A stretch of DNA of 40,160 bases from Desulfovibrio sp. OttesenSCG-928-A18 (GTDB taxonomy: Bacteria; Desulfobacterota; Desulfovibrionia; Desulfovibrionales; Desulfovibrionaceae), in assembly GCA_030267245.1 (NCBI GenBank), contig JAJDJN010000003.1, positions 1 through 40,160 on the forward strand, given 5' to 3'. This document shows positions 254 to 35,787 of the stretch, one piece after another (within the stretch, counting starts at the first letter, position 1; every line of letters starts with the position of its first letter). A program made the position numbers and the translations under genes. The notes below the pieces were generated by a model. That model was not told the DNA's origin. It searched no databases and saw nothing but the letters and a program-made list of their open reading frames with translations.

Positions 254-850
254 ATGACTTCGCTTGCCCAACATATACTGACCAAAGCCAACCAGTTACC
301 CGAAGGCGGAGTATTTTCGCCCAAAGAATTTTTGCACTTGGGGAGTCGGGACGCTGTTGATCAAACATTTACACGTCTGCTGAAGGAAAATAAGTTGCTG
401 CGCGTAGGGAGAGGACTGTATACGCTTCCCTTACAAGGGCGCTTCGGTTCTCGTCCGCCATCGCCGGAGCGGCTGCTTGCGGCCCTGACGGAAAAAACCG
501 GCGAAACTGTGGTGTCACATGGCGCGGCGGCTGCAAACCGCCTTGGCCTGACTACGCAAGTACCTGTTCGTGAGATTTTTTTGACTTCAGGCCGGAGTCG
601 CACTTTACGGCTAGGCTCTCGCGTTCTGGAAATCAAACATGCACCGCATTGGCAGTTGCTACTTGGAGAAAGTTCCGGGGGAGCATTGCTTCGGGCCTTG
701 GCTTGGCTTGGGCCGGAACAGGCAGAAGAAGTTATGCCGCAAGTACATGAAATGATCCCCGCCCAAGAATGGGAAGCGGTAGCCGCTGTACGCTCTGAGT
801 TGCCATCCTGGTTGGCCAAAACTGTGAGCCGAGTAGAACAACATGCTTGA
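254..850 (+). CDS. AbiEi-like antitoxin / DUF6088-type transcriptional regulator
   Basis: N-terminal wHTH-like region (FSPKEFLHLGSRDAVDQTFTRLLKENKLLRVGRGLYTLP) and C-terminal AbiEi-like region; followed by an AbiEii gene with 8-bp overlap. Confidence 0.8.
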   Translation: MTSLAQHILTKANQLPEGGVFSPKEFLHLGSRDAVDQTFTRLLKENKLLRVGRGLYTLPLQGRFGSRPPSPERLLAALTEKTGETVVSHGAAAANRLGLTTQVPVREIFLTSGRSRTLRLGSRVLEIKHAPHWQLLLGESSGGALLRALAWLGPEQAEEVMPQVHEMIPAQEWEAVAAVRSELPSWLAKTVSRVEQHA

Positions 851-1883
851 AACGTATTTCTCTCTCTCCATGGCAGATCAGGCCGAGCTTTTGGATACTG
901 CATCATCTCACTCCGGTCGCCCGGCCCATCTTCTTGAAAAAGACGTATGGGTTGTATGGACATTGTCCTGCCTTTTTTCTTCCGCCTTGGCGGATAGACT
1001 CACCTTCAAGGGGGGCACGTCACTTTCCAAGGCTTACAATGTCATTGACCGTTTTTCAGAAGATATTGACCTTACATGTGATATTCGTCGCCTACTGCCC
1101 GACATGGCCACGGAGCCGGAAGGTATTCCGCCTACTTCTAGCCAAGCCGCAAAATGGACGAAAGCTGTACGTTCCCGTTTGCCTCAATGGATTGAAGACA
1201 GCGTTATTCCAGTTATTCAGACGGCTTTGGCCGATAGCGACATGGTGGCCGCTCTCGATATAACCGGCAAAGATAGTGACAGTATTCTTGTAAAATATCC
1301 GCCGTTACGACAAGGAACAGGGTATGTCGCTCCGCATATCCGGTTGGAATTCGGAGCAAGGTCTACCGGAGAACCCTGCGAGGTTTTGCCGGTCGTTTGC
1401 GATCTTGCGCCGCTGATGCCTGAAATTATGTTTCCCGAGGCGCGGCCACGGGTCATGAAGATGGAGCGCACTTTTTGGGAAAAGGCTACCGCCATCCATG
1501 TTTTTTGCCGACAGGCCAAGATGCGCGGCAACCGTTTTGCCAGGCACTGGCACGATCTTTTGCGTCTGGCTGCAACCGAACGTATCCAGACCTCACTTGC
1601 GGATAAATCTTGGTTGGAACAAGTTGTTCGGCATAAAACAATGTTTTTTCAGGAAAAAGATCAATCCGGAGTACCCATTGACTACCAGGAATGCTTGACT
1701 GGACATTTATGCCTTGTGCCTGATGGGGTAGCGTGTGAAACTCTACGCGAAGACTATAACAGCATGATTCAGGATGGCATTTTACTGGCGCAGGCTCTAG
1801 AGTTTGACGTTGTTCTGGAGCAATGTACCCGCCTACAGACAATGATTAATTCTGACAACACCAATAGTGAGATTTTGCCGTGA
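843..1883 (+). CDS. AbiEii/AbiGii-family nucleotidyltransferase toxin
   Basis: Motif LTFKGGTSLSKAYNVIDRFSEDIDLT typical of AbiEii nucleotidyltransferases; ERTFWEKATAIH motif. Confidence 0.9.
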   Translation: MLETYFSLSMADQAELLDTASSHSGRPAHLLEKDVWVVWTLSCLFSSALADRLTFKGGTSLSKAYNVIDRFSEDIDLTCDIRRLLPDMATEPEGIPPTSSQAAKWTKAVRSRLPQWIEDSVIPVIQTALADSDMVAALDITGKDSDSILVKYPPLRQGTGYVAPHIRLEFGARSTGEPCEVLPVVCDLAPLMPEIMFPEARPRVMKMERTFWEKATAIHVFCRQAKMRGNRFARHWHDLLRLAATERIQTSLADKSWLEQVVRHKTMFFQEKDQSGVPIDYQECLTGHLCLVPDGVACETLREDYNSMIQDGILLAQALEFDVVLEQCTRLQTMINSDNTNSEILP

Positions 1884-3976
1884 GCTTGACTACAAACTTA
1901 GCAGGTAGATTGCGGAACACTCCCCTCCCAAGAACACATGCGCTGTTTCCGTTGTTTGAAGCGGTCGTAAACTCTATTCATGCGTGTGAAGATGGCACTG
2001 GAAAGTCTATTGAAGGTAGCTCAATAGCTGTCCATATTTTACGCGACTCCAAAGAGGCTTTTCAAGCCAACCTGCTTAATGATGAACCTCGAAAAACAGG
2101 GGTAGAGGCTTTGCCCGAAATAAAGGGCTTCAGAATTGTAGACAACGGAGTTGGCTTTAATGATGAAAATATGGAATCATTCAAGACTCTTGACAGCGAT
2201 TACAAAGAAGAAAAAGGCTGCCGGGGAGTAGGCAGGCTCCTATGGCTTAAAGCCTTTAAAACAGTTGAAGTATTGAGTCGCTATACAGAATATGATGGCA
2301 ACATACGGCAACGAAATTTTTCTTTTAGCAAAGAGGGGGTCATGCCTCCCTCCCCAGAGGGAAAATCAACTACGTCAGTCAATACACAAACAACGGTTAC
2401 TATGTCAGATTTTTACCCTGCATATAGAAAGTATGCGCCAAAAACAATTCATAAAATTTCCGAACTATTGCTTGAACATTGTCTTTGGTACTTTATCCGT
2501 GAAGGCGGAAGACCGCATATAAGGCTTATTGATGGTGATGAGAGCGTTGAGCTGGACGCTTTGTTTGATAGCTATACGCTTGGTAATGTTGAGTATGACA
2601 ATGCAGATATTGGTAGCTATAGATTTGAATTGACATATATAAAGGCTCGAAATCCTAGTTTAAGTAATCATGAGATTTGTTATTGCGCTGCAAGTCGCCT
2701 TGTGAAAAAGGTTAATATAACAAATAAAATTCCTGGATTATATAAACGCATCACAGATAGTCATGGCGCATTCGCTTATATGTGTTTTGTTACATCATCC
2801 TTTTTAGATGAACGTGTTCGTTCTGAACGAACAGGGTTTGATATAGAAGATAGTAGACAGGAGAATGAACATAGCCAATCTTCATTATTCAATACTGATG
2901 ACGGTGCTCTCGACGATGATGTGGTATTTGACGACATCGACAAAGTTGTTTTGGAGAAAATTTCCGAAAGAATTGGAGATACGCTTGAAGCAAGTCAGCA
3001 AACAGGGAGACAACGGGTAGAGCAGTTTGTTGATAATAATGCACCAAAATATAAATCGATAATGCGTCACTATCCGAATCTGTCTGTGGACCCAGATACA
3101 ACAGACAGGGAATTAGACATCCTATTGTATAAAAGACTTTCCGATCTTGAAGTAAAAGTAATATCAAAAGGACACGAACTGTCTATTCCTAAAGAAGGTG
3201 AGCCTTTTGAAGATTATAGCAAAAGATTACATGACTACCTCTCTATGGTCAGCGATATAAAAATGGCAGACCTAGCCAACTATGTATCTCATAGAAAAGT
3301 GGTATTAGATTTTTTTGAAGAGGTTATCCAACAGCATAGGGATGGAAAATATTCACAAGAGAATATTGTTCACAGGCTTATAATGCCAATGCAGGTTGAG
3401 TCGGATGAAATTAAACTTGAGAGTGCAAATCTATGGCTTATTGATGAGCGTCTAGCGTTTCATAATTATTTAGCATCCGACAAGACTTTAAAGTCGATGC
3501 CCATAACAGATTCTGAAGAAACTGTCAGGCCAGATATAGTTTCTCTCGGTGTGTACGACAATCCATTGTTAGTCAATAATGGCAAACAGCTTCCTTTGGC
3601 TAGTATCACCGTTGTCGAAATAAAACGACCTATGCGCAATGATTTTTCTGAAGGCGAGGCTGATAACCCCATCGAGCAAGCTTTGGCATATGTGAAAAAA
3701 ATCCGTGCAGGTGAAACAAAAACAAAAGATGGGCGGATAATTCCCCAGTCTGAATCTATCCCTGCTTTCTGCTATATTCTTGCAGACTTGACTCCTACCA
3801 TGGAAACTCGTGCGCAAAACGCAGGGTTGACGGTTACAAGCGATCATATGGGATATTTTGGTTATAACCCTGCTCGCAATGCCTATATTGAAGTTATTGG
3901 CTTCGACAGATTAATCACTGCGGCCAAGGAAAGAAACAAAGCATTTTTTGATAGGCTTGGACTGCCTTCAAATTAA
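1880..3976 (+). CDS. GHKL-type ATPase fused to a PD-(D/E)XK-like nuclease domain, putative defence effector
   Basis: N-box FEAVVNSIHAC, DNGVGF and GCRGVGRLLWLKAF (GHKL); C-terminal RPDIV...VVEIKRP; GTG start overlaps the AbiEii stop by 4 bp. Confidence 0.7.
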   Translation: MSLTTNLAGRLRNTPLPRTHALFPLFEAVVNSIHACEDGTGKSIEGSSIAVHILRDSKEAFQANLLNDEPRKTGVEALPEIKGFRIVDNGVGFNDENMESFKTLDSDYKEEKGCRGVGRLLWLKAFKTVEVLSRYTEYDGNIRQRNFSFSKEGVMPPSPEGKSTTSVNTQTTVTMSDFYPAYRKYAPKTIHKISELLLEHCLWYFIREGGRPHIRLIDGDESVELDALFDSYTLGNVEYDNADIGSYRFELTYIKARNPSLSNHEICYCAASRLVKKVNITNKIPGLYKRITDSHGAFAYMCFVTSSFLDERVRSERTGFDIEDSRQENEHSQSSLFNTDDGALDDDVVFDDIDKVVLEKISERIGDTLEASQQTGRQRVEQFVDNNAPKYKSIMRHYPNLSVDPDTTDRELDILLYKRLSDLEVKVISKGHELSIPKEGEPFEDYSKRLHDYLSMVSDIKMADLANYVSHRKVVLDFFEEVIQQHRDGKYSQENIVHRLIMPMQVESDEIKLESANLWLIDERLAFHNYLASDKTLKSMPITDSEETVRPDIVSLGVYDNPLLVNNGKQLPLASITVVEIKRPMRNDFSEGEADNPIEQALAYVKKIRAGETKTKDGRIIPQSESIPAFCYILADLTPTMETRAQNAGLTVTSDHMGYFGYNPARNAYIEVIGFDRLITAAKERNKAFFDRLGLPSN

Positions 3977-4230: not shown

Positions 4231-4310
4231 TTCGAGGACAGGACAAGCGAGGTAGGCCCACCTGATTGGTGTTCCTACTCACGTCCTGCCCATGCGGGGC
4301 TGACTTATTC
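4231..4310 (+). promoter_or_regulatory. oriT: Candidate IncP/RP4-like oriT; nic predicted at ACGTCCTG^CCC (between 4288 and 4289)
   Basis: Nested inverted repeats CAGGAC (4239-4244)/GTCCTG (4283-4288) and TAGGnnCACC-TGATT-GGTGnnCCTA (4253-4277), followed by CCTGCCC and GGCTGAC; upstream of and same orientation as traJ-like and relaxase genes. Confidence 0.7.
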
Positions 4311-4347
4311 GCTTCGCTCAACGTAAATTCCAAGAGGTTTTGACTCC

Positions 4348-4926
4348 ATGAAAAGAAAGATTGCCCTGGCCCTGGCTTTACTCTTGTTTTCTGTTCCCAA
4401 CTTCGCCGAAGCGGAGGAACCGCCGCCAGCTCTGGTCAAAGCCATAGCCCGGCAGGAATCCGGGCTGAATCCCTTGGCCATCAATATCGCCGGGAAGTCA
4501 TACTATCCAGGCACACGAGAAGAGGCGGAACGGTTGATCCGGGAAGCCCTGGCAGCCGGGAAGTCATTTGATGTCGGCAAGATGCAGATAAACAGCTGGT
4601 GGATGAAGCGTTTTACTATTGATCCCATTTCCTTGCTCGATCCGGACGTGAACGAGGCCTGGGGCAAACACATATTGGCCGAAGAAATCACCCGACACGG
4701 CCTGAACTGGCAGGCTGTAGGAAAGTACCATTCACCTGATCCGGAGCGCGGCAGGCGGTACGCCTGGCTCGTTTATCGTCATTACGCAGGCCAAAGCGCC
4801 TCCCACAAGGAGGCTCCTCGTGCCCAGCAAAAAACAAGTCATCAAAATATATCTGACACCGGAGGAGTTTGGAGAAATCCGAGCATCAGCCGACCGGGCC
4901 GGATTATCACTCTCGACCTTCAGTAA
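4348..4926 (+). CDS. Lytic transglycosylase (VirB1/TrbN-like)
   Basis: Signal peptide; ALVKAIARQESGLNPLAIN and DVGKMQINSWW SLT motifs. Confidence 0.85.
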   Translation: MKRKIALALALLLFSVPNFAEAEEPPPALVKAIARQESGLNPLAINIAGKSYYPGTREEAERLIREALAAGKSFDVGKMQINSWWMKRFTIDPISLLDPDVNEAWGKHILAEEITRHGLNWQAVGKYHSPDPERGRRYAWLVYRHYAGQSASHKEAPRAQQKTSHQNISDTGGVWRNPSISRPGRIITLDLQ

Positions 4927-5137
4927 GCTCGTTTGTCTTGGCTTTGTCGTGCCCAGCCTGGAGCATCAGGAAGCCCGCCTGGAACTTCGCCGCCTCAAAG
5001 GCGATCTTGGCCGCTTGGGCGGCCTGGTCAAACAGGCGCTGGCCAACGGAGCTGACCGGCAGACCGTTCACCGGCTCCTGCATGAACTGGATGCCCGGCA
5101 GCGTGAAGTGCAGGCAGCTGTGGGACGGATACGATAA
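4820..5137 (+). CDS. TraJ/MobC-like relaxosome accessory protein (ribbon-helix-helix)
   Basis: GTG start with upstream AAGGAGG; KQVIKIYLTPEEFGEIRASADRAGLSLSTFSKLVCLG; immediately precedes relaxase. Confidence 0.8.
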   Translation: MPSKKQVIKIYLTPEEFGEIRASADRAGLSLSTFSKLVCLGFVVPSLEHQEARLELRRLKGDLGRLGGLVKQALANGADRQTVHRLLHELDARQREVQAAVGRIR

Positions 5138-6174
5138 TGATCAGCAAGCGCGTATTCATAAAAGCGAACAATGACAATTACACCCGCCTTGCCGCCTACA
5201 TAGCCGAAGTTGGGCCTGCCGGTGAAAAGTGCCTTGCGAACTGGTGCGAGGGGATGCTCGGCGGTGAGGATTACGCGGAGGGTATTGCCGAGGCCCAGGA
5301 TGTACAGACTCGGAATACCCGTGCAGCCAGCAAGACCTATCACCTGGTTGTCAGCTTCAGACCGGAGGACGAGGCGAAGCTGACGCCGGAGCTTTTCAAG
5401 GCCATTGAGGCGCGGTTCGCTTCCGCTCTCGGATACGCCGACCATCAGCGACATTGCGGCGTTCACAAAAATACGGCCAACCTGCACATGCACGTCGCCT
5501 ACAACATGATCCATCCCGAAAAATATACCTGTCACAAGGAGTTTCGCGATTTCTGGGTACGCGACAAGGTATGCCGGGCCATTGAGCGCGATTTCGGCTT
5601 GACGGTGGATAATGGCATTGAACTGAATTCTTCCGCCCAGGATTTGAACCACCAGCGTGACAACGAAAAAGCGCGGCTTGTGGAGGCCCACACCGGCCAG
5701 CAGTCCTTTGATTCCTACGCCAAGGAACACCGGGAAGAGAGACTGCGTTCTCTGGAGGCAGCTACATCCTGGCAGGATCTGCACACGACTCTGGCCGAAC
5801 ACGGCATGGAGATAAAACCCCACGGTAACGGCCTGGCCATCAAAGACCGGCACAGCAGAAAGGCGGCTCACGCCATCAAGGCCAGCGCCCTGGATAGAAG
5901 CCTCTCTATGAAGAAACTGGAGGCGCGATTCGGCGCATATCAGGCTCCGCAAAGCATGGAACAGATCCAGGAGCGGAATCGTTACAGCACCGCGCCGCTG
6001 CATCGCTCTCCGGAGCGCGGCCAACTCTTTGCCGAGTACCAAACCGGAATTGAGGCTCGCAAGACGACCCTACAAACCGTCAAGGAACAGGAAGAGGCCG
6101 CCCTTGCCGCCACCAGGGCAGACCACGGCAAAAGGCGCACCGAGCTCGCCACGGAAGAAAAACAGCCCGGTTGA
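5137..6174 (+). CDS. MOBP (TraI/VirD2-like) relaxase, C-terminally truncated
   Basis: HCGVHKNTANLHMHVAYNMIHPEKY (HxH relaxase motif III); last ~20 residues are encoded by DNA antisense to the neighbouring hydrolase. Confidence 0.85.
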   Translation: MISKRVFIKANNDNYTRLAAYIAEVGPAGEKCLANWCEGMLGGEDYAEGIAEAQDVQTRNTRAASKTYHLVVSFRPEDEAKLTPELFKAIEARFASALGYADHQRHCGVHKNTANLHMHVAYNMIHPEKYTCHKEFRDFWVRDKVCRAIERDFGLTVDNGIELNSSAQDLNHQRDNEKARLVEAHTGQQSFDSYAKEHREERLRSLEAATSWQDLHTTLAEHGMEIKPHGNGLAIKDRHSRKAAHAIKASALDRSLSMKKLEARFGAYQAPQSMEQIQERNRYSTAPLHRSPERGQLFAEYQTGIEARKTTLQTVKEQEEAALAATRADHGKRRTELATEEKQPG

Positions 6175-6558
6175 TGCTTTTGTCGGATCGGATCGCTTTT
6201 GCTGCTCCGAATAGAAATCATAAAAGATTGTTTTTCCTGCGGCGGCATCGTCAACCATATGATTGAGCCCGGCCAGAACCGTGTCTACATCCACAGAGCC
6301 ATGATAGGGCAACAGCGAATGAATACGGCTTATAGGCAGGCTCAGGTTGGAAACGTCACCATCTCGCGTCAGCAGATGTTGGCCGAATCCCTTGAACGCC
6401 GGATGCTCCATGAGTATCTGAATGGTGTCACCGGCTTTTATATGGGGATATTTATTCATGTCCTCCGCTGCCCGCGCCGAGTTCATTGAGAGCTGGAGCG
6501 CCAGTATGGCTGCCAGCAAGAAGGCAATCCGCCAGGAAAACAAACACGATCTCAGCAT
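6070..6558 (-). pseudogene. Truncated exported alpha/beta hydrolase (N-terminal fragment)
   Basis: Signal peptide, then GLFFFRGELGAPFAVVCPGGG, after which the frame enters DNA of the relaxase gene and stops. Confidence 0.75.
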
Positions 6559-6573
6559 TGCGCTTTCCCTTTC

Positions 6574-7713
6574 CTAGTCGTTTGTTGCAGAGTTTTCCTT
6601 CCACCACTGCGAGAATCGGTGTTCCTCCGCATCGAGCGGAACCGGCTCACCGATTTTGGGAGTGAGCAAGGGAATCGGGCTGTGCTCCATTGTCCGCGTA
6701 AGCCGGATAAAAGGATCGTCCCAGGAATGCCGGGCAATGGAGAATTTGCCCGCATGGGCGGGGAGGAGCGATCCGGCCTGGAGGTCTGCCGTGGCCTGCA
6801 CAGCGTCTTCCGGCATCATGTGAACATAACGCCAGCCTTCATTGTATTGGCCGCTGTCCAGCACGGCCAGGTCGAACCCGCCGAAAGTTTCACCAGCGGC
6901 ACGAAAATGGGAGCCATATCCGCTATCGCCGCTGATATAAATTTTGCGTTCCTGGCTGATCAGGGCGTAAGCGGCCCACAAAGTTTTGTTGCGGGTCAAC
7001 GTTCGGCCAGAGTAGTGCCGCGCAGGCAGCGCGTGTATGGCCAGCCCGCTGTCGAGTTGAAGGACTTCATTCCAATCCATTTCAACAACGGAGCTTTCTG
7101 GGAAGCCCCAGCGTTCAAAATGGGCTCCAACTCCAAGGGGGCATATGGTTTTCGCTATTTTGCTTTTGAGCGCCATAACGGTTGGATAATCAAGGTGATC
7201 CCAATGGTCATGGGTGATCAGAAGGATGTCTATGTCGGGCATATCTGCGGTCGTGTATATATTCGTACCCGGAAACGCTTTATTCGCAAACGGGATAGGA
7301 GCCGCGTTGTCGCTGAATACCGGGTCAATCAGGATTCTGCGCCCGGCTATCTGCATGTAAAACGAAGAGTGCCCCAGCCAGATGACCGTATCGTCATTTC
7401 TATCCAGCCCAGCTAGGTCGGTTTTGACCGTGGGAATGGGGACTTCCGGCCTGGGACGGTCTTTTTCGGCTGTCAGGGAATTGAGCAACCGCCGCACAAC
7501 CCCTTTCTTCTCGATAGTCATGGTCGGGATTGGCTCCAGGTTGCGGAATTCGCCATCGCGGTAGTTTGGTGAGGCTTCAATTTTTTGGAGCCTCACTCCT
7601 TCCGGGAACGCTCCGAATTTTGCCGTGTGCATGTAGCCATAACCACCGCTGAAAAGGACAGCCGCAAGCAGTACAAGCCCGGTAAGCATTTTGAGAAACC
7701 GCCTTTTTATCAT
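6574..7713 (-). CDS. MBL-fold metal-dependent hydrolase (UlaG/NAPE-PLD-like), membrane-anchored or exported
   Basis: WLGHSSFYMQIAGRRILIDPVFSD and LLITHDHWDHLD metallo-beta-lactamase motifs; N-terminal hydrophobic segment. Confidence 0.88.
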   Translation of the reverse strand: MIKRRFLKMLTGLVLLAAVLFSGGYGYMHTAKFGAFPEGVRLQKIEASPNYRDGEFRNLEPIPTMTIEKKGVVRRLLNSLTAEKDRPRPEVPIPTVKTDLAGLDRNDDTVIWLGHSSFYMQIAGRRILIDPVFSDNAAPIPFANKAFPGTNIYTTADMPDIDILLITHDHWDHLDYPTVMALKSKIAKTICPLGVGAHFERWGFPESSVVEMDWNEVLQLDSGLAIHALPARHYSGRTLTRNKTLWAAYALISQERKIYISGDSGYGSHFRAAGETFGGFDLAVLDSGQYNEGWRYVHMMPEDAVQATADLQAGSLLPAHAGKFSIARHSWDDPFIRLTRTMEHSPIPLLTPKIGEPVPLDAEEHRFSQWWKENSATND

Positions 7714-7745
7714 GCTGTTTCCTTACTGATTATTCTGAAAGCGGC

Positions 7746-8390
7746 TCATGAGCCGGGATGCCGGATGCCGTGAAAGTTGGTCAAAATCTGTTCCTCTTTT
7801 TCAGGGAGCGGCACTCCGGCGGCAATCCCGGCCTCCTTGCAGCGCAGGAACCAGGCCATATTGCGCCCAAGGTTCCGCATGATTTGCAAGCCTTCAAAAT
7901 CCTGCCGCACGTCTTCCGGGGTGAAACCATGCACCATGTTCCAGTAGGAAGATGAGATTATGGGCATCTGGCAGATGGTGAAATACTTGTTCAGTTGGTC
8001 GAATGTGGCGCTAGTTCCGGCCCGACGAGCGGAAACGACTGCCGCAGCGGGTTTCAGATGAAACATGCTCCTTTCCGGGCAGAAAAAAGCCCTGTCCATA
8101 AATGAGGTGATGCTTCCAGTTGCCGAAGAGAAGTACACGGGGGAGCCGAACACAAAACCGTCAGTTTCCCGCGCCAGTTCCACAAAGTCATTCACGATGT
8201 CGTTGATGGCACACCGGCCTGGCTTCTGTTGGCATTTGAAGCAGGCAATACAGCCGGAAATGGGCTTTTTTCCCAACTGGAATATTTGCGTTTCTATCCC
8301 TTCCCTGTTCAAGGTTTCCGCTACTTCGCTCAAAGCGGTAAACGTACAGCCTTGAGCGTTCGGACTGCCATTAACCAGTAATACTTTCAT
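7746..8390 (-). CDS. Flavodoxin family / NAD(P)H-dependent FMN reductase (cytoplasmic)
   Basis: MKVLLVNGSPNAQGCTFTALSEVAETL and FGSPVYFSSATGSITSFMDRAFF. Confidence 0.9.
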   Translation of the reverse strand: MKVLLVNGSPNAQGCTFTALSEVAETLNREGIETQIFQLGKKPISGCIACFKCQQKPGRCAINDIVNDFVELARETDGFVFGSPVYFSSATGSITSFMDRAFFCPERSMFHLKPAAAVVSARRAGTSATFDQLNKYFTICQMPIISSSYWNMVHGFTPEDVRQDFEGLQIMRNLGRNMAWFLRCKEAGIAAGVPLPEKEEQILTNFHGIRHPGS

Positions 8391-8403
8391 CGTATTCTCC
8401 TCA

Positions 8404-9564
8404 TTATTGGGGGGCTATCCATGTGACCGACCCGGATCTGCCGGGCCGGTCTCGAAAAGAGCATTGAGCTATCCTGGCATAACGCAAGATTACTTCAGAT
8501 TGTCGCGGAAAAATTTCCAGCTTGTCAAAGGGAATCAGGTCGATTTTGTCGTAGAGGTCAAAATGTCCGGCATTTGGAACAATTACGAGTTCTTTAGGTT
8601 CTGCCGCCCGGTTGTGGGCGTCTTCCGTAAACGGACGCGAATGGGCCTTTTCCCCCATGATGAAAAGCATCGGGCGCGGGGAAATTGTCTCGATGTCATT
8701 GAACGGATAAAAATTCATGAATTTCGCATTAGTAACTTTGTCAGAACGGGTATTTATTTCAAAGGGTTCCCCCGTGGGAATAAATTCACCCCTGCCATGA
8801 TAAAAAGCATGTGAGTGTTTACGGGTGGCTGGTGAATTTTCATCAACTTTGAAAGGAGCACCGCCGACGAAAACTTGCTCGCCGCCCAGGAAGTCCGAAT
8901 ACCGCTGGTCGGCGGCGTCGGCGATGGTTTTCCTGCGTTGTTCCAGGCTTATCGAACCGCGTATGCCGCTACGGCGCATCTCACCGATGTTGTACATGCT
9001 CACAGTTGCGACGGCCTTCATGCGCGGGTCAATCTTGGCCGCGCTGATAACAAAACTGCCGCTCCCGCAAATACCGATGATGCCGATTTTTTCACGATCC
9101 ACAAAATCGCGCGTTCCAAGGAAGTCTACAGCCGCATTGAAGGTTTCAGCATAGATGTCCGGATTGATGCCGTGACGTGGTATGCCGCCGCTTTCACCCC
9201 AGAACTGTTGATCGACAGCGAGGGTTACAAAGCCACGGGCTGCAAGCTCGGCCCCGTACACACTTGAGCCCTGTTCCTTGACCGCGCCCATGGGGTGGCC
9301 GATGACAATAGCAGCCGCTTTGCCCTTGAGCTCTTTGGGTACGAACAGATTGCCCACAACCTCCATGCCGTATTGGTTGCTGAAGCTGGCACGGTAAATC
9401 CGGACATTTTCACCAACCGTGAACGTCTTGAAATCACGGGTGGTAATTTCATCCATTGTTGGCGCGGGCTTTTTGATGGTTTCGGCACTTGCCGGGTGGG
9501 TTGCCACAAGGGCGATACCACAGCACAACAGAGAGCATAAAACTAGCTTCGTGAACCTTTTCAT
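8404..9564 (-). CDS. Exported alpha/beta hydrolase (dienelactone-hydrolase-like, GxCxG elbow)
   Basis: Signal peptide (MKRFTKLVLCSLLCCGIALVATHPASAE); GIIGICGSGSFVISAAKIDPRMKAVATVSMY. Confidence 0.85.
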   Translation of the reverse strand: MKRFTKLVLCSLLCCGIALVATHPASAETIKKPAPTMDEITTRDFKTFTVGENVRIYRASFSNQYGMEVVGNLFVPKELKGKAAAIVIGHPMGAVKEQGSSVYGAELAARGFVTLAVDQQFWGESGGIPRHGINPDIYAETFNAAVDFLGTRDFVDREKIGIIGICGSGSFVISAAKIDPRMKAVATVSMYNIGEMRRSGIRGSISLEQRRKTIADAADQRYSDFLGGEQVFVGGAPFKVDENSPATRKHSHAFYHGRGEFIPTGEPFEINTRSDKVTNAKFMNFYPFNDIETISPRPMLFIMGEKAHSRPFTEDAHNRAAEPKELVIVPNAGHFDLYDKIDLIPFDKLEIFPRQSEVILRYARIAQCSFRDRPGRSGSVTWIAPQ

Positions 9565-28857: not shown

Positions 28858-30654
28858 TCATTTTTTCCCAGTACACTCCGGCCAGCCGGTGCAGCCCCAA
28901 AAATCATAGCCGCCCTTGCCGTCCTTGCCGGGCTTTTTCACCCGGCGCACCATAGGCTTTCCGCACTTTTCGCAGATTTTCCCCGTGGCCTTGGCAAAGG
29001 CCTGGAGTTCCTGCTCCAACCGGGCATGGGCTTCACTGATCACGGTGCAGTAATCTGCCTTGCCTGCGGCGATGTCATCCAGCGCCTGTTCCATCGTCCG
29101 GGTGAATTCGTATTCCACAAAACTGAAATTGCCGCGCAGCCCATCCACCACCATGACACCCAGCGGCGTGGGAACCAGAAAGCGCTTTTCCGTTTTGACG
29201 TAGCCCCGGTTCATGATGGTATCCAAGATGGCCGCGTAGGTGGACGGACGGCCAATGCCGCGTTTTTCCAGTTCGCGGATAAGACTGGCTTCTGTGAACC
29301 GAGCGGCGGGTTTCGTCTTTTTCGTCAGCACCGTGCCGGACAGGGCTGTGGGGCTGGTGCCCGGCTTCATGGCCGGAGCCGGGTTTTCCGGCTCCACAGA
29401 GTTGCCGGAATCTTCAATCGCCGCATCTTCCGCTGTCAGAACTTTCCAGCCCTGCGAAAGCAGCGTCCGGCCCTTGGCTTCAAAAAGCGCCTGTTTGCCG
29501 TCCATGTTGGCGGCGAGCTGTAGCACCCGCACCGCGTACACGGCATCTTCCAATTGGCTGGCCAGGGAGCGCAGCCGGATCAGCCGGTACAGGGCTTTTT
29601 CATCGGCGGTTTCCCCGGCGTCCTCTACCTCTATATGGGTGGGCCGAATGGCTTCATGCGCTTCCTGTGCCCCTTCCTTCGACTTCCAGGAGCGCGGGGT
29701 TTCCACCAGCGGCCAGTTCTGACCTTCACAAAAGGCGCGGATCGCATCCACTGCCTCTTGCGAGAGATTGGGGGAATCCGTACGCATATAGGTGATATGC
29801 CCGCTCTCATAGAGTTTTTGCGCCAGTTGCATGGTCTGTTTGGGCGTGAATTTCAGAGCGTTGGAGGCTGCCTGTTGCAAGCTGGATGTGGTGAAGGGAG
29901 CCGGAGGCGCGGAGCGGCTTTCCGTTTCCTTGCAATCAATGACTTCCAGGGAGCGGAGCGCCGCCGCCTTTTCGGCCAGGGTTTTATCAAGCAAGTATTC
30001 CTGGCCGTCTTCAAGCCAGGGCTTAACCTGCCAGGCGGCTTTCCAACCGTCCGTGATGTTGTCCACATTTTCAAAGGTCAGTTCCGCACCGTAGTGGGTT
30101 GTGCTGCGAAAATCCTGTATTTCCCGTTCGCGCTCCACAACCAAACGCACAGCCGGGCTCTGCACCCGGCCAGCGGAGAGTTTTTCACCGGCAACATTGG
30201 AGAGCGGCCCACTGACCATATAGCCGCAGAAGCGATCCAGCACCCTCCGACCTTCCTGCGCGGCAACCAGGGCCATGTCGATGGAACGCGGCGCATCGAG
30301 CGCAGCCTTGATGGCTTTTTCAGTAATTTCCGCATAGGTAACGCGCTTGGCGTCCTTGAGCTTCAGGGCATCTTGCAGGTGCCAGGCGATTGCCTCACCC
30401 TCACGATCCGGGTCTGTAGCGAGGTAGACGGCTTCGGCATTTTTGACGAGCCCGGCCAGGCGGGAGAGCACATCTTTTCCCCTATCCGTGGGAATGTATT
30501 GCGGTTTGAAATCCGGCGCGGCCACGCCCATTTCCTTGACGGGCAAATCGCGCACATGGCCGACCGAGGCGGCAATCTTCCAGTCGGAGCCCAGGAACTC
30601 CTGCACTTTTTTCACTTTGCCGGGGGATTCGAGAATAAGCAGTTTCGCGCACAT
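28858..30654 (-). CDS. topA-like: Type IA DNA topoisomerase
   Basis: LLILESPGKVKKVQEFLG, YLATDPDREGEAIAWHL, ITYMRTDSPNLS, EKRGIGRPSTYA, C4 zinc-finger CEKCGKPM...CTGWPEC. Confidence 0.97.
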   Translation of the reverse strand: MCAKLLILESPGKVKKVQEFLGSDWKIAASVGHVRDLPVKEMGVAAPDFKPQYIPTDRGKDVLSRLAGLVKNAEAVYLATDPDREGEAIAWHLQDALKLKDAKRVTYAEITEKAIKAALDAPRSIDMALVAAQEGRRVLDRFCGYMVSGPLSNVAGEKLSAGRVQSPAVRLVVEREREIQDFRSTTHYGAELTFENVDNITDGWKAAWQVKPWLEDGQEYLLDKTLAEKAAALRSLEVIDCKETESRSAPPAPFTTSSLQQAASNALKFTPKQTMQLAQKLYESGHITYMRTDSPNLSQEAVDAIRAFCEGQNWPLVETPRSWKSKEGAQEAHEAIRPTHIEVEDAGETADEKALYRLIRLRSLASQLEDAVYAVRVLQLAANMDGKQALFEAKGRTLLSQGWKVLTAEDAAIEDSGNSVEPENPAPAMKPGTSPTALSGTVLTKKTKPAARFTEASLIRELEKRGIGRPSTYAAILDTIMNRGYVKTEKRFLVPTPLGVMVVDGLRGNFSFVEYEFTRTMEQALDDIAAGKADYCTVISEAHARLEQELQAFAKATGKICEKCGKPMVRRVKKPGKDGKGGYDFWGCTGWPECTGKK

Positions 30655-31246: not shown

Positions 31247-31666
31247 TCAGTCGAAGATAACAATGGCACTGGGGAGAGGCGTCACATACTCTATCCCTTC
31301 AAGCATCACCAAGCCACGCAGGAAGTGTATTTCCCCATAAGGAATTACGAGATCATGCCACCATGCCGTATCAATTCGTGCAGGGAGAAGGCTTACAACA
31401 CGATCTGCACGCCCATCGTGCAACTCGCCCATCGCTTTGGCGATCCAGGGGCCAATGCTGGCATCATACATTGGATTCAGCCAGCAAGTGCCAAACCACG
31501 GCTCTGCAAGGCTTTCAGCCCAGGTAATGTAGTTTTCGCACTTGGCACTCTCCGGTGTGGCACATACATCCATATCGAAATTTCCATGTGTCATATCCCA
31601 AGCGCGGAACACTTCCCACGGAGTAGTCCAAGCTACGGATTCGCTTGACAGTCTTACATCTTTCAT
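31247..31666 (-). CDS. Dam-like methyltransferase paralogue with altered catalytic motif NPMY
   Basis: WTTPWEVFRAWD...GTCWLNPMYDASIGPWIAKA; paralogue of 30733-31170. Confidence 0.85.
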   Translation of the reverse strand: MKDVRLSSESVAWTTPWEVFRAWDMTHGNFDMDVCATPESAKCENYITWAESLAEPWFGTCWLNPMYDASIGPWIAKAMGELHDGRADRVVSLLPARIDTAWWHDLVIPYGEIHFLRGLVMLEGIEYVTPLPSAIVIFD

Positions 31667-33417
31667 AAGGATAGCTCCCTTGTTTTGCCCTGCTGACGGG
31701 CTTTTTCTTGTTGTATATCTTGCCGTAGAACCAGGCCGACCTGATTCTGTACTTCTTTCAGGCCGCGTAGCTCTTTATCCACTGTCATCACCGGAACAAG
31801 GAGAGTGCCGTCCACATCCTCACGCACTCCAAAAGCCGGAACGCCCTTGGCCTGTAAGTAGGGATTATCGTCAGCTGCCCAATCATGGGCGATCCATTCC
31901 GTATGGGCCTCACGCGCCGTTTTTTGCTGCTGTTCCAGAACCAACCGCTGCCGTTCTTCTCGTTTTCTGGCGATCTCAGCGCGTTGGGCTTCTATCTGCT
32001 CTTTTGTCAGAGTATGGCCTGTGGCAACCCAAGTTGTTTTTTCGCCAGCACTAAAATTCTGCATCCAACCAGCAGGACGCTCATCGAGAAAGCCGCAGTA
32101 TGCGCCGTCAAGTTCTCCGCCATTTCTGCCAATGAGCGGTACTCGATGTATTTGCCCATCCATGATCGGTGATTTGCCGCGCAGATCCAGCCCGGCCTGT
32201 TCCAGGGCTTGCGCGAATTCTTCCTGCGGCGGCAAGGTGCGCACCGGTTCCGGCGTTTTGGTCTTTTCCGGCAGCCAGGCGGAGAGCTGGTTCAAGTCCG
32301 TGCCTTCCGGCGCGTACCAGAGCTTGTTTTCCTTGTCCCACTTCGCTCCCAGCTTTTTGGCCTGTTCCTTCTCTTTATACGGAACGGCCAGGAAGGTTTT
32401 TTCCTTGGCCGGGTCTGCCGGAACTCCCATAGCGGCAATATCCTCCTTACGCTCCAGCACCTTTTCCGGCTCCGGCGCTTTCACGGTCTGTTCCTGGCCA
32501 AGCTCTTTTTGTTTTTCCATACCCAAAACGTATTCCTTGATCTGTTCCGCATCCCGGCAGGCACGGACGATTTCATAGGGATCTTCCTCCAGCACCTTGA
32601 CCCAGGACTGCACATAAGCCGCATGTTGTTCCGGATTGTGCGATATGCCGATGTCCTGGCCGAGCATCCAGGACGCGATCTCCGCCCGGAGCTCTTCCCG
32701 TGCATACTTCTCCGAGCCAAAAGGGCCGAACTCCCGTTCCATGCGGCTGCCATGCCCTGTCCAGTGCCCCAACTCGTGCAGGGCCGTGCCGTAATACAAG
32801 CCGGGCTCTTCAAAGTTTTCACGCGGCGGCAGATGGATGGAATCCGTCATGGGCCGGTAAAAAGCCCGGTTACTCTGGTCGTGCTTGATGGTCGCGCCGG
32901 AGGCGGAGAGGATGTTTTCCGCCTTTTCTATGGGTTCCCACTCAAAAGATTGGCCCGTAAGCTCCAGCGGCGGCATGCCGTCAATCTGCTCCGCGTTGAA
33001 AACATGGGCCAGACGCATGAGCGGTTTATCCAGTTCCACTGTTTCCTTTTGCGGCTTGCCGTCTTCTCCGAGAACGGGCTTTCCGTCTTCACCCAGGCGA
33101 TCCTGATCTTTGGTGAACTGGAAATAGACCACAGGCGTGGCCTTGCTGCCGGGCAGGATGCGCAAGCCGTTGTCGTTGGCCTGGCGCAGGGTCATCCAGC
33201 GCGGATCGTCGTATCCGGAAAGCGCCAGATGCACCCGGTTCATGCCCCGGTACACCGTGCCGGAAGCCGGGTTGTGCGGCGCGGAAACAGCGTCACCCGG
33301 ATGCCAGGGCCGCTGCCAGGGAGCGGTGCCCGCCTTCAGGTGGCCAATGATCTTTTCCGCGAACTCTTCATGGAAGGGGCGGCGTTTGGCTTTTTCGGGC
33401 TTTTTATCGTCCTTCAT
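31663..33417 (-). CDS. ArdC-like antirestriction/zincin metallopeptidase with C-terminal primase-derived segment
   Basis: APWQRPW...PHNPASGTVYRGMNRVHL (ArdC N), TALHELGHWTGH zincin motif, AKKLGAKWDKENKLWYAPEG, then DDNPYLQAKGVPAFGVR. Confidence 0.88.
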   Translation of the reverse strand: MKDDKKPEKAKRRPFHEEFAEKIIGHLKAGTAPWQRPWHPGDAVSAPHNPASGTVYRGMNRVHLALSGYDDPRWMTLRQANDNGLRILPGSKATPVVYFQFTKDQDRLGEDGKPVLGEDGKPQKETVELDKPLMRLAHVFNAEQIDGMPPLELTGQSFEWEPIEKAENILSASGATIKHDQSNRAFYRPMTDSIHLPPRENFEEPGLYYGTALHELGHWTGHGSRMEREFGPFGSEKYAREELRAEIASWMLGQDIGISHNPEQHAAYVQSWVKVLEEDPYEIVRACRDAEQIKEYVLGMEKQKELGQEQTVKAPEPEKVLERKEDIAAMGVPADPAKEKTFLAVPYKEKEQAKKLGAKWDKENKLWYAPEGTDLNQLSAWLPEKTKTPEPVRTLPPQEEFAQALEQAGLDLRGKSPIMDGQIHRVPLIGRNGGELDGAYCGFLDERPAGWMQNFSAGEKTTWVATGHTLTKEQIEAQRAEIARKREERQRLVLEQQQKTAREAHTEWIAHDWAADDNPYLQAKGVPAFGVREDVDGTLLVPVMTVDKELRGLKEVQNQVGLVLRQDIQQEKARQQGKTRELSL

Positions 33418-33616
33418 AGACCGCCTCCCCCTGGCCGTTGATGGTGAGCAGCGCGTCTTCAATCAAGTCGGCCAGTATAATGGAGTCTTCGCTGAACGCG
33501 CCCATGTAGTCGGCCACGTCCGGATCGAGCGGAACGTACAGCGCCGGATCAGCGGCAATCTGTTCCGCTGCCGACCGTGCGGCGGCGGCAAGGTATTCTT
33601 TGTGTTTCATGATCAT
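33404..33616 (-). CDS. Small conserved-looking conjugation-region protein
   Basis: 70-aa ORF between traF-like and ardC-like genes, overlapping the ArdC start by 14 bp. Confidence 0.6.
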   Translation of the reverse strand: MIMKHKEYLAAAARSAAEQIAADPALYVPLDPDVADYMGAFSEDSIILADLIEDALLTINGQGEAVYEGR

Positions 33617-34122
33617 TCTCCTTTGGGGTTGAACAAAAAAAGAGGCTCGACCCGCTGGAGGCTATCCAAGGGAACGAGCCCGAAATACCGGCTGTCGAAA
33701 CTGCCTTCATGATCGGCCAGCACCAGCGCCATGCCGGAGGGAATGACGCCGGACGCGAGGACGGAAGGCATGGGTCGCCCCTGACTGTCCATGGAGCGGA
33801 CGGCCAAGGAATCAGCCTCTATGTAGTCGCCGGGCAGACCTGCCAGGCGTTTGAGTAGCGGACGCAAGCCATTGGGGCAGGAACCGGCCTGAAGATAGCC
33901 ACGTTCTTTCGCCAAATCGGCAAACTCGCCTTGTAGGCAGAAGCTGACGAAATCTCCCTTGGTCACATCCTGACCAGGGGCGATCCTGTAGACTCCCTTG
34001 GGCAAGGACGGTGTGGGATTGAAACGCAGACCGGAGCCATGCGCCAGAATACCGGCCAGCAGCAGCCACAGAACGGCAAAGAGCCAGCATCGCACCCGGC
34101 TATTCCATAAAATAGCGTTCAC
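33613..34122 (-). CDS. traF-like: TraF-like conjugative transfer signal peptidase (S26)
   Basis: NPTPSLPKGVYRI, LKRLAGLPGDYIEADSLAVRSMDSQGRPMP, YFGLVPLDSLQRVEPL. Confidence 0.92.
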   Translation of the reverse strand: MNAILWNSRVRCWLFAVLWLLLAGILAHGSGLRFNPTPSLPKGVYRIAPGQDVTKGDFVSFCLQGEFADLAKERGYLQAGSCPNGLRPLLKRLAGLPGDYIEADSLAVRSMDSQGRPMPSVLASGVIPSGMALVLADHEGSFDSRYFGLVPLDSLQRVEPLFLFNPKGE

Positions 34123-35056
34123 TGGAGTTCTCCTGTGTGGGCGCAGGCGCGGCGTCCGCAGTTTTTGGGGCGGCGGAAGAGGACGGCCTGGCCGAGTACC
34201 AGGACGCCGGGCGCGGCTGATACAGTGAATCGCTGATGCCGCTGGGATAAACGGCGTTCAGGCCGGGCACCGGAATTTTGGCGCGGGCCGAGAAGACGGG
34301 ATCGAAGAAATAGAGAATCTGCCGACCGTAGATGGGCGATTGCCCGGCTGTGAAAACCAGCATGTCGCCCGGCTTGAGCACGCGCCCCTGGCTGTCCTTT
34401 TCCGGGCCGGGCAACCTCATGCACTCGTCAGGCGTGAGCAGGGGCCGGGCCGTTTCCGTCACGTTGACCGAGGCGTTTTTCATGTGCCCGGTACGTGAAC
34501 CGGAAAGGGACACTTTTTCTTCCACGACAGTGGTTTTCCCCGTCATGTCGGAAAGCGTCTTGGCCGTTTCAATTGTGTTCGGCGCGTAGGCAATCCGCAC
34601 ATGGCAGTTGGCCATGAGCGCGTTATCCTTGCCGTACACCGCATTAAGCTGAGTAATGTCCTGAACGATAATGTAAACTTTGCCGCCGTAGCCCGCGATG
34701 TAGGCCAAGGCTTTTTCCATAATCGGGAGCTTGCCCAAGCTGGTGAACTCGTCCAGCAGCAGTAAAAGCCTGTGCTTGTAACCCGCCTTGCTGGAACCGT
34801 CCGCAAACTCCATTTTGGAGCAGATCCGGCGCACGATCATATCCACCATGAGCCGGAGCAAAGGCCGCATACGGTCAATGTCAGCCGGGGAAATCACCAG
34901 ATAGAGATTCACCGGCTTTTCGTGGTTCATCAGGTCATGGATGCGGAAATCACAATGCGCGGTATTCAGCGCCACCACCGGATCGCGGTATAGCGCCAGA
35001 TTGGTCAAGGCTGTGGAAACGACCCCGGAGGCCTCATTTTCCGCCTTGTTCGTCAA
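34100..35056 (-). pseudogene. traG-like: TraG/VirD4 coupling protein, N-terminally truncated (Walker A missing)
   Basis: LLLLLDEFTSLGKLPIMEKALAYIAGYGGKVYIIVQD (Walker B region) retained; frame begins internally at LTNKAENEASGVVSTA with only a TTG as possible start. Confidence 0.85.
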
Positions 35057-35526: not shown

Positions 35527-35787
35527 CATAATAACTCCGCTGGTAAAGGCAGCCGCAAGCGGTGAACATGCTCCCAGAACAAAAGCCACGCCTCCTCATA
35601 AAGTGGCCTGTAACACGCCGCAAGAGAGGAACAGCCAATCTGTTCCTCAAAATTGAGCAACGCACAATGGCATCTCAGACATGCACCAGCGGCATGCAAT
35701 GTTGAACGCCTTGCTGTGCGCAGCAGCTTGGACGGTATTTTGCTACACAATCAGTTACGTTTAGGGTTCTAGGGGGTGTTCCGCTAT

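Follow-up and report, generated by a model that had tools for sequence, protein, structure and literature searches.

A common breakpoint truncates a relaxase and a hydrolase gene in a degraded RP4-like conjugative element and is probably the scar of a deletion

The DNA that we analyzed, hereafter called the window, is the whole of contig C223 (40,160 bases), which belongs to a draft genome of 2.37 Mb in 318 contigs (66% complete, with a reported contamination of 0.11%). At its left lie core genes of a conjugative element, namely those for an SLT transglycosylase (4348-4926, + strand; PF01464), in a gene order kept in relatives, a NikA-like mobilisation protein (4820-5137, +; PF21983) and a relaxase. 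These are followed by about 22.7 kb of composite cargo (6107-28857), the ORFs of which include hydrolases, flavodoxins, a two-component system and AraC regulators. The cargo reaches a full-length gene for type I topoisomerase, topA (28858-30654, -; TIGR01051), the product of which is 82% identical to that of contig C112 in the same genome. Beyond topA follow two further core genes in a position and order also kept in relatives, for an ArdC-like protein named by eye (31663-33462, -) and the conjugative transfer peptidase TraF (33613-34122, -; TIGR02771), and then a C-terminal fragment of the coupling protein TraG (34100-35056, -). At the opposite edge, positions 1-84 match a stretch that in G068 precedes the SLT gene (L042 4155-4238), about 350 bases from the end of the main match. 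The ORFs at 254-3976, by eye two AbiE-like genes and one for a large ATPase-like protein, would thus seem to occupy another cargo slot, the second of the element.

The relaxase ORF (5137-6174, +) encodes 345 amino acids, of which residues 1-325 (5137-6111) are of the TraI/MobA(P) family (347 bits with model NF041893, cut-off 250). They comprise the MobA/VirD2 nuclease domain at residues 34-155 (PF03432, E 6e-27) and TraI_middle at 177-270 (PF22863), with the HUH or three-His motif III, HKNTANLHMH, at 110-119 and candidate catalytic tyrosines at 15 and 21. The protein therefore has the nuclease domain of MOBP relaxases but not their full length, since it retains 325 of about 541 residues. Besides this fragment, the genome holds three relaxases, on contigs C267 (locus L007, 541 aa, uninterrupted), C112 (562 aa) and C13 (558 aa). 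The intact C267 copy is the closest homologue; its DNA is collinear with the window at 83% identity over 4234-6112, where the match ends. The match with G068 likewise ends at 6112 and that with the second element of genome G008 at 6118. In protein alignments with 10 intact relaxases (541-563 aa), similarity stops at window residue 325 (...EEAALAA), after which the ORF continues for 20 residues unrelated to the homologues plus a stop codon (6112-6174), antisense to the hydrolase gene described below. The break falls between TraI_middle, which extends to about residue 270, and a weakly scoring LPD7 region (470-530 in C267); the LPD7-type C-terminus, a domain matched in all 3 intact copies scanned, is gone from the window protein. 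We found no paper on LPD7 in relaxases and no solved structure resembling the intact relaxase by sequence.

A naturally short relaxase ending at this point, next to a hydrolase truncated independently, seems very improbable. Two relaxase ORFs of only 325-331 aa do occur in G248, and the matches to the relaxases of G048 and G052 extend no further than about residues 321 and 299, each gene lying beside an IS-type transposase ORF; however, a frameshift accounts for the short G248 ORFs, the C-terminal part being present downstream, the aligned relatives are of full length with LPD7 in the scanned copies, and the two window genes stop at the same five bases. A natural short form was rejected, and no homologue was found to end here by nature. 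The two G248 loci (L113 6594-8232 and L114 5574-7219) are near-identical; in both, the relaxase is divided at about residue 325-331 into an N-terminal and a C-terminal ORF. The two parts lie in different frames in L114, which is a frameshift, possibly a programmed one. With the 3'-truncated genes of G052 (L115 9347-10290) and G048 (L125 2673-5027), relaxase decay recurs in these related genomes.

On the complementary strand, the hydrolase ORF (6070-6558, -) encodes 162 amino acids. The intact homologue is an uninterrupted 331-aa protein of the BD-FAE type in the related genome G008, to which residues 1-151 of the window protein (6106-6558) are about 88-89% identical. Among 149 related genomes searched, G008 showed 90% DNA identity to window positions 6107-6698, and its full match spans 6107-8977 at 86% identity, beginning exactly at 6107. 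The G008 protein reads CPGGG-FSYVGSVHEG..., whereas in the window CPGGG is followed by 11 residues, KGGLFLFLDGL, and a stop codon (6070-6105) that derive from the relaxase strand. The fragment thus lacks the GxSxG serine (GSSAG in the intact homologue) and the C-terminal histidine regions required for BD-FAE catalysis; the intact protein matches PF20434 and PF00326, and the fragment matches no Pfam family. Across all 288 genomes of the family, the search gave no further close copy of this hydrolase (the next best were 41-56% identical), viral contigs contained no relatives, and plasmids gave only matches below 60% identity. Further along the same block, in a metallo-beta-lactamase-like gene, identity to G008 drops to 64-77% over positions 6857-7600, with flanks near or above 88%, a mosaic that suggests recombination with another copy.

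The two truncations meet at one point. In base-by-base comparison the window tracks the C267 relaxase through CTTGCCGCCA and the G008 hydrolase from CCGCC on, the word CCGCC (6107-6111) being common to all three sequences, and base 6112 (A) agrees with the relaxase parent only. The end points of the relaxase and hydrolase homologies, 6112 and 6107 respectively, are no more than 6 bases apart, which would place the breakpoint within CCGCC or at its edge. Because random joins of these two genes give an overlap of at least 5 bases in only 0.6% of cases, the shared word probably belongs to the mechanism of joining, even if the overlap is read from diverged stand-in parents (10-18% different), which leaves its exact ancestral length uncertain. 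There is no terminator near the junction, no exact match to it in viral contigs and no Rfam family in the window. The initial annotation had described a relaxase reading normally to EEAALAA and then through DNA antisense to the hydrolase, a hydrolase reading to CPGGG and then into the relaxase for 11 residues, and the loss of both C-termini at one point with short microhomology; alignment with the homologues bears out all of this and pins the position. Intact versions exist for each gene separately (in C267 and other contigs for the relaxase, in G008 for the hydrolase), but an intact relaxase beside an intact version of this hydrolase was found neither in the 288 family genomes nor in the genome_contigs collection.

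As all the junction evidence comes from a single draft contig, an assembly or library chimera, that is, a join present in no cell, has to be weighed. The incomplete and fragmented draft and the several related relaxases within it speak for such an artefact; yet the parents have only 5 bases in common at the join, far below the usual word length of assemblers, so that a shared-word graph error is not expected. Moreover, the sequences on either side come from the same type of element and are ordered and oriented as expected, and the reported contamination is very low. We thus regard a chimera as unlikely.

Both truncations look recent, because the ORFs are uninterrupted up to the break, the relaxase fragment shows a dN/dS of 0.13 against C267 with symmetrical rates, and the hydrolase has a dS of only 0.23 to its intact G008 copy. 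With 7 outgroups, no relaxed selection on the relaxase fragment was detected, relative rates being symmetrical without lineage-specific excess. Given the intact state of the G008 hydrolase, the junction is younger than the split of the window and G008 copies, a split that bounds the age of the junction and not the time at which the island arrived.

The arrangement of related elements clarifies what is missing. A relaxase gene convergent with topA, with variable cargo between the two, is present in 7 of them (C112, two in G008, and one each in G166, G156, G056 and G160); their cargo includes, by eye, a transporter, efflux genes, metal-related genes and others. We found no paper on this relaxase-topA slot. 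A small convergent HTH gene lies directly 3' of the relaxase stop in C112, one G008 element, G156, G114, G056, G019 and G160, hence in 5 of the 7 slot elements, and about 0.6 kb past the relaxase in C267. In the window, the HTH gene was not found at E values up to 1, nor was the relaxase C-terminus found at the topA side of the island (the best tblastn hit in the window, with E 0.08, lies elsewhere); together with the hydrolase C-terminus, all three pieces are missing from the window, the topA end included. Insertion of the whole island into the relaxase as a unit, by transposition or site-specific insertion, is therefore scarcely credible: the island does adjoin the relaxase fragment directly, but its other end abuts an intact topA without relaxase C-terminus or HTH gene. 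A simple insertion would have left the C-terminal part at the topA end, where there is none, and was thus rejected; the same absences favor an interstitial deletion. The proposal that the island had broken the relaxase by inserting into it accordingly fails for want of a relaxase remnant on the far side. A reciprocal inversion or translocation is also disfavored, in that the hydrolase C-terminus was not found elsewhere in the draft genome, itself only 66% complete.

A conserved repeat of about 115 nt, found in the window at 35608-35740 (+), ends in the invariant 3' sequence GTGCGCAGCAGCTT. Other copies lie at L103 3842-3956 and 13713-13828, L105 16057-16171, L101 14848-14962, L008 10270-10388 and L127 3685-3805, and of 149 family genomes, 8 contain an exact 18-base core. 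The arms of its 5' hairpin vary between copies and yet still pair by eye; the repeat has no match in Rfam, and RNAalifold gave only 2 pairs changed on both sides. In intact elements the repeat is located where the cargo slot borders on the relaxase, and a 9.8-kb cargo module in G114 has a copy on either side.

The two ends of the cargo seem to have different histories. Contig C17 of G160 carries, between the HTH gene and topA, homologues of the window genes for CMD2, cupin, cytochrome b, flavodoxin, SDR and the topA-adjacent AraC regulator, all oriented as in the window and in nearly the same order (SDR is displaced), with 39-60% protein identity; the core genes of this element are 53-74% identical to those of the window. 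The G160 relaxase has its 3' end, although its reading frame is broken separately, at about residue 196. The topA-side cargo has likely been long resident in the slot, the alternative being independent acquisition. Since G160 combines homologous cargo with a relaxase 3' end and the HTH gene, the junction does not date the arrival of the island of about 22 kb, as was initially proposed; the slot is recurrently occupied next to relaxases with an intact 3' end. By comparison, the block at 6107-8977 on the hydrolase side also occurs in a differently placed G008 copy, at a dS of about 0.23-0.26 outside the mosaic stretch, whereas the relaxases of the window and G008 differ by a dS of about 2, near saturation; by these distances the block has moved recently. 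The G008 copy of the hydrolase block (L040 8188-12775, equivalent to C1:540188-544774) is itself cut inside a DLH1 homologue, where it adjoins a gene that by eye is phage-capsid-like, near a tyrosine-integrase-like ORF.

We consider it probable that the junction at 6107-6111 was left by an interstitial deletion within the cargo slot of a conjugative element that is RP4-like and degraded. Illegitimate, microhomology-associated deletions that truncate genes are a known kind of event in bacterial mobile elements. What we observed directly is one breakpoint at which both genes are truncated, a window that lacks the missing pieces, and the layout of the slot in relatives; the state before the deletion is a reconstruction from relatives. 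In that state, the relaxase (+) would have been followed by the small convergent HTH gene (-) and the hydrolase module (-) of a cargo reaching topA (-). After the hydrolase module had arrived, an illegitimate event would have joined a CCGCC word of the relaxase to one of the hydrolase, by either replication slippage or microhomology joining. Lost with it would have been both C-termini, the HTH gene and whatever DNA lay between them. Judged by the relatives, the minimum loss comes to about 1.5 kb, made up of 651 bases from the relaxase, about 300 from the HTH gene and 543 from the hydrolase. The short common word and the lost intervening DNA, in this case three absent pieces, are what such a deletion leaves.

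The hydrolase could, however, already have been a fragment on arrival. If a hydrolase fragment starting in mid-gene had been joined into the relaxase, displacing its 3' end and the HTH gene as the module arrived, the same join would result. This capture with replacement is possible but doubtful. The recent movement of the block, with its low dS and different placement in G008, fits it, as does the cut at the other end of the G008 block; but it needs two joins instead of one, besides a donor fragment that happens to start in mid-gene, and cargo elsewhere in the slot leaves the relaxase 3' end whole. Both readings fit the join itself, and deletion is preferred because it requires fewer events. 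Under a deletion the scar is of an ordinary kind, in a mobile element already decaying; what it corrects is the history, since a cargo island beside a broken relaxase is no proof that the island did the breaking. The recurrent slot in sister elements is of some use for annotating the conjugative elements of these relatives.

The initial annotation also held that the break probably disabled mobilisation. Loss of mobilisation through the relaxase truncation would be an inference, weakened by the retention of the nuclease and TraI_middle domains and by the lack of detectable relaxed selection. An N-terminal fragment of 270 residues of RP4 TraI cleaves oriT oligonucleotides in vitro (PMC4814116), and relaxase activity is reported to reside in the N-terminal domain alone (PMC3772185). 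By analogy, nicking of oriT by the window fragment may survive, transfer being a separate matter. Immobility is better supported elsewhere: TraG, expected complete in a self-transmissible RP4-like element, is truncated on its N-terminal side (residues 371-701 of 702 remain), with the DNA match to intact elements stopping at 35051 (blastn and tblastn), and no genes for a type IV secretion system (T4SS), integrase or replication were recognized among the ORFs of the window, at both sides of which the contig ends. The truncation of TraG and the lack of a recognized T4SS gene are stronger evidence of immobility than the relaxase break, and the element seems to have decayed in more than one place, TraG being the second. 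A broader proposal is that the relaxase-topA interval is a dedicated landing site marked by the repeat of about 115 nt, with junctions as by-products of module exchange rather than random decay, and that the truncated relaxase nicks oriT while sister elements in the same cell mobilise the element in trans; we judge this combination distinctly improbable.

Compared with the RP4-type (IncP) system, typified by a TraI of the MOBP class, the window shares the TraI/MobA(P) model, a NikA-like partner and homologues of TraF and TraG, but differs in having a relaxase without its C-terminal part, a fragmentary TraG and no T4SS gene recognized on the contig. Regarding the BD-FAE or alpha/beta hydrolase family (PF20434), the intact G008 homologue matches it, whereas only residues 1-151 survive in the window copy. 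The junction itself, with nothing distinctive about it, resembles the microhomology-associated deletions known elsewhere in its single join, 5-base word and lost intervening DNA.
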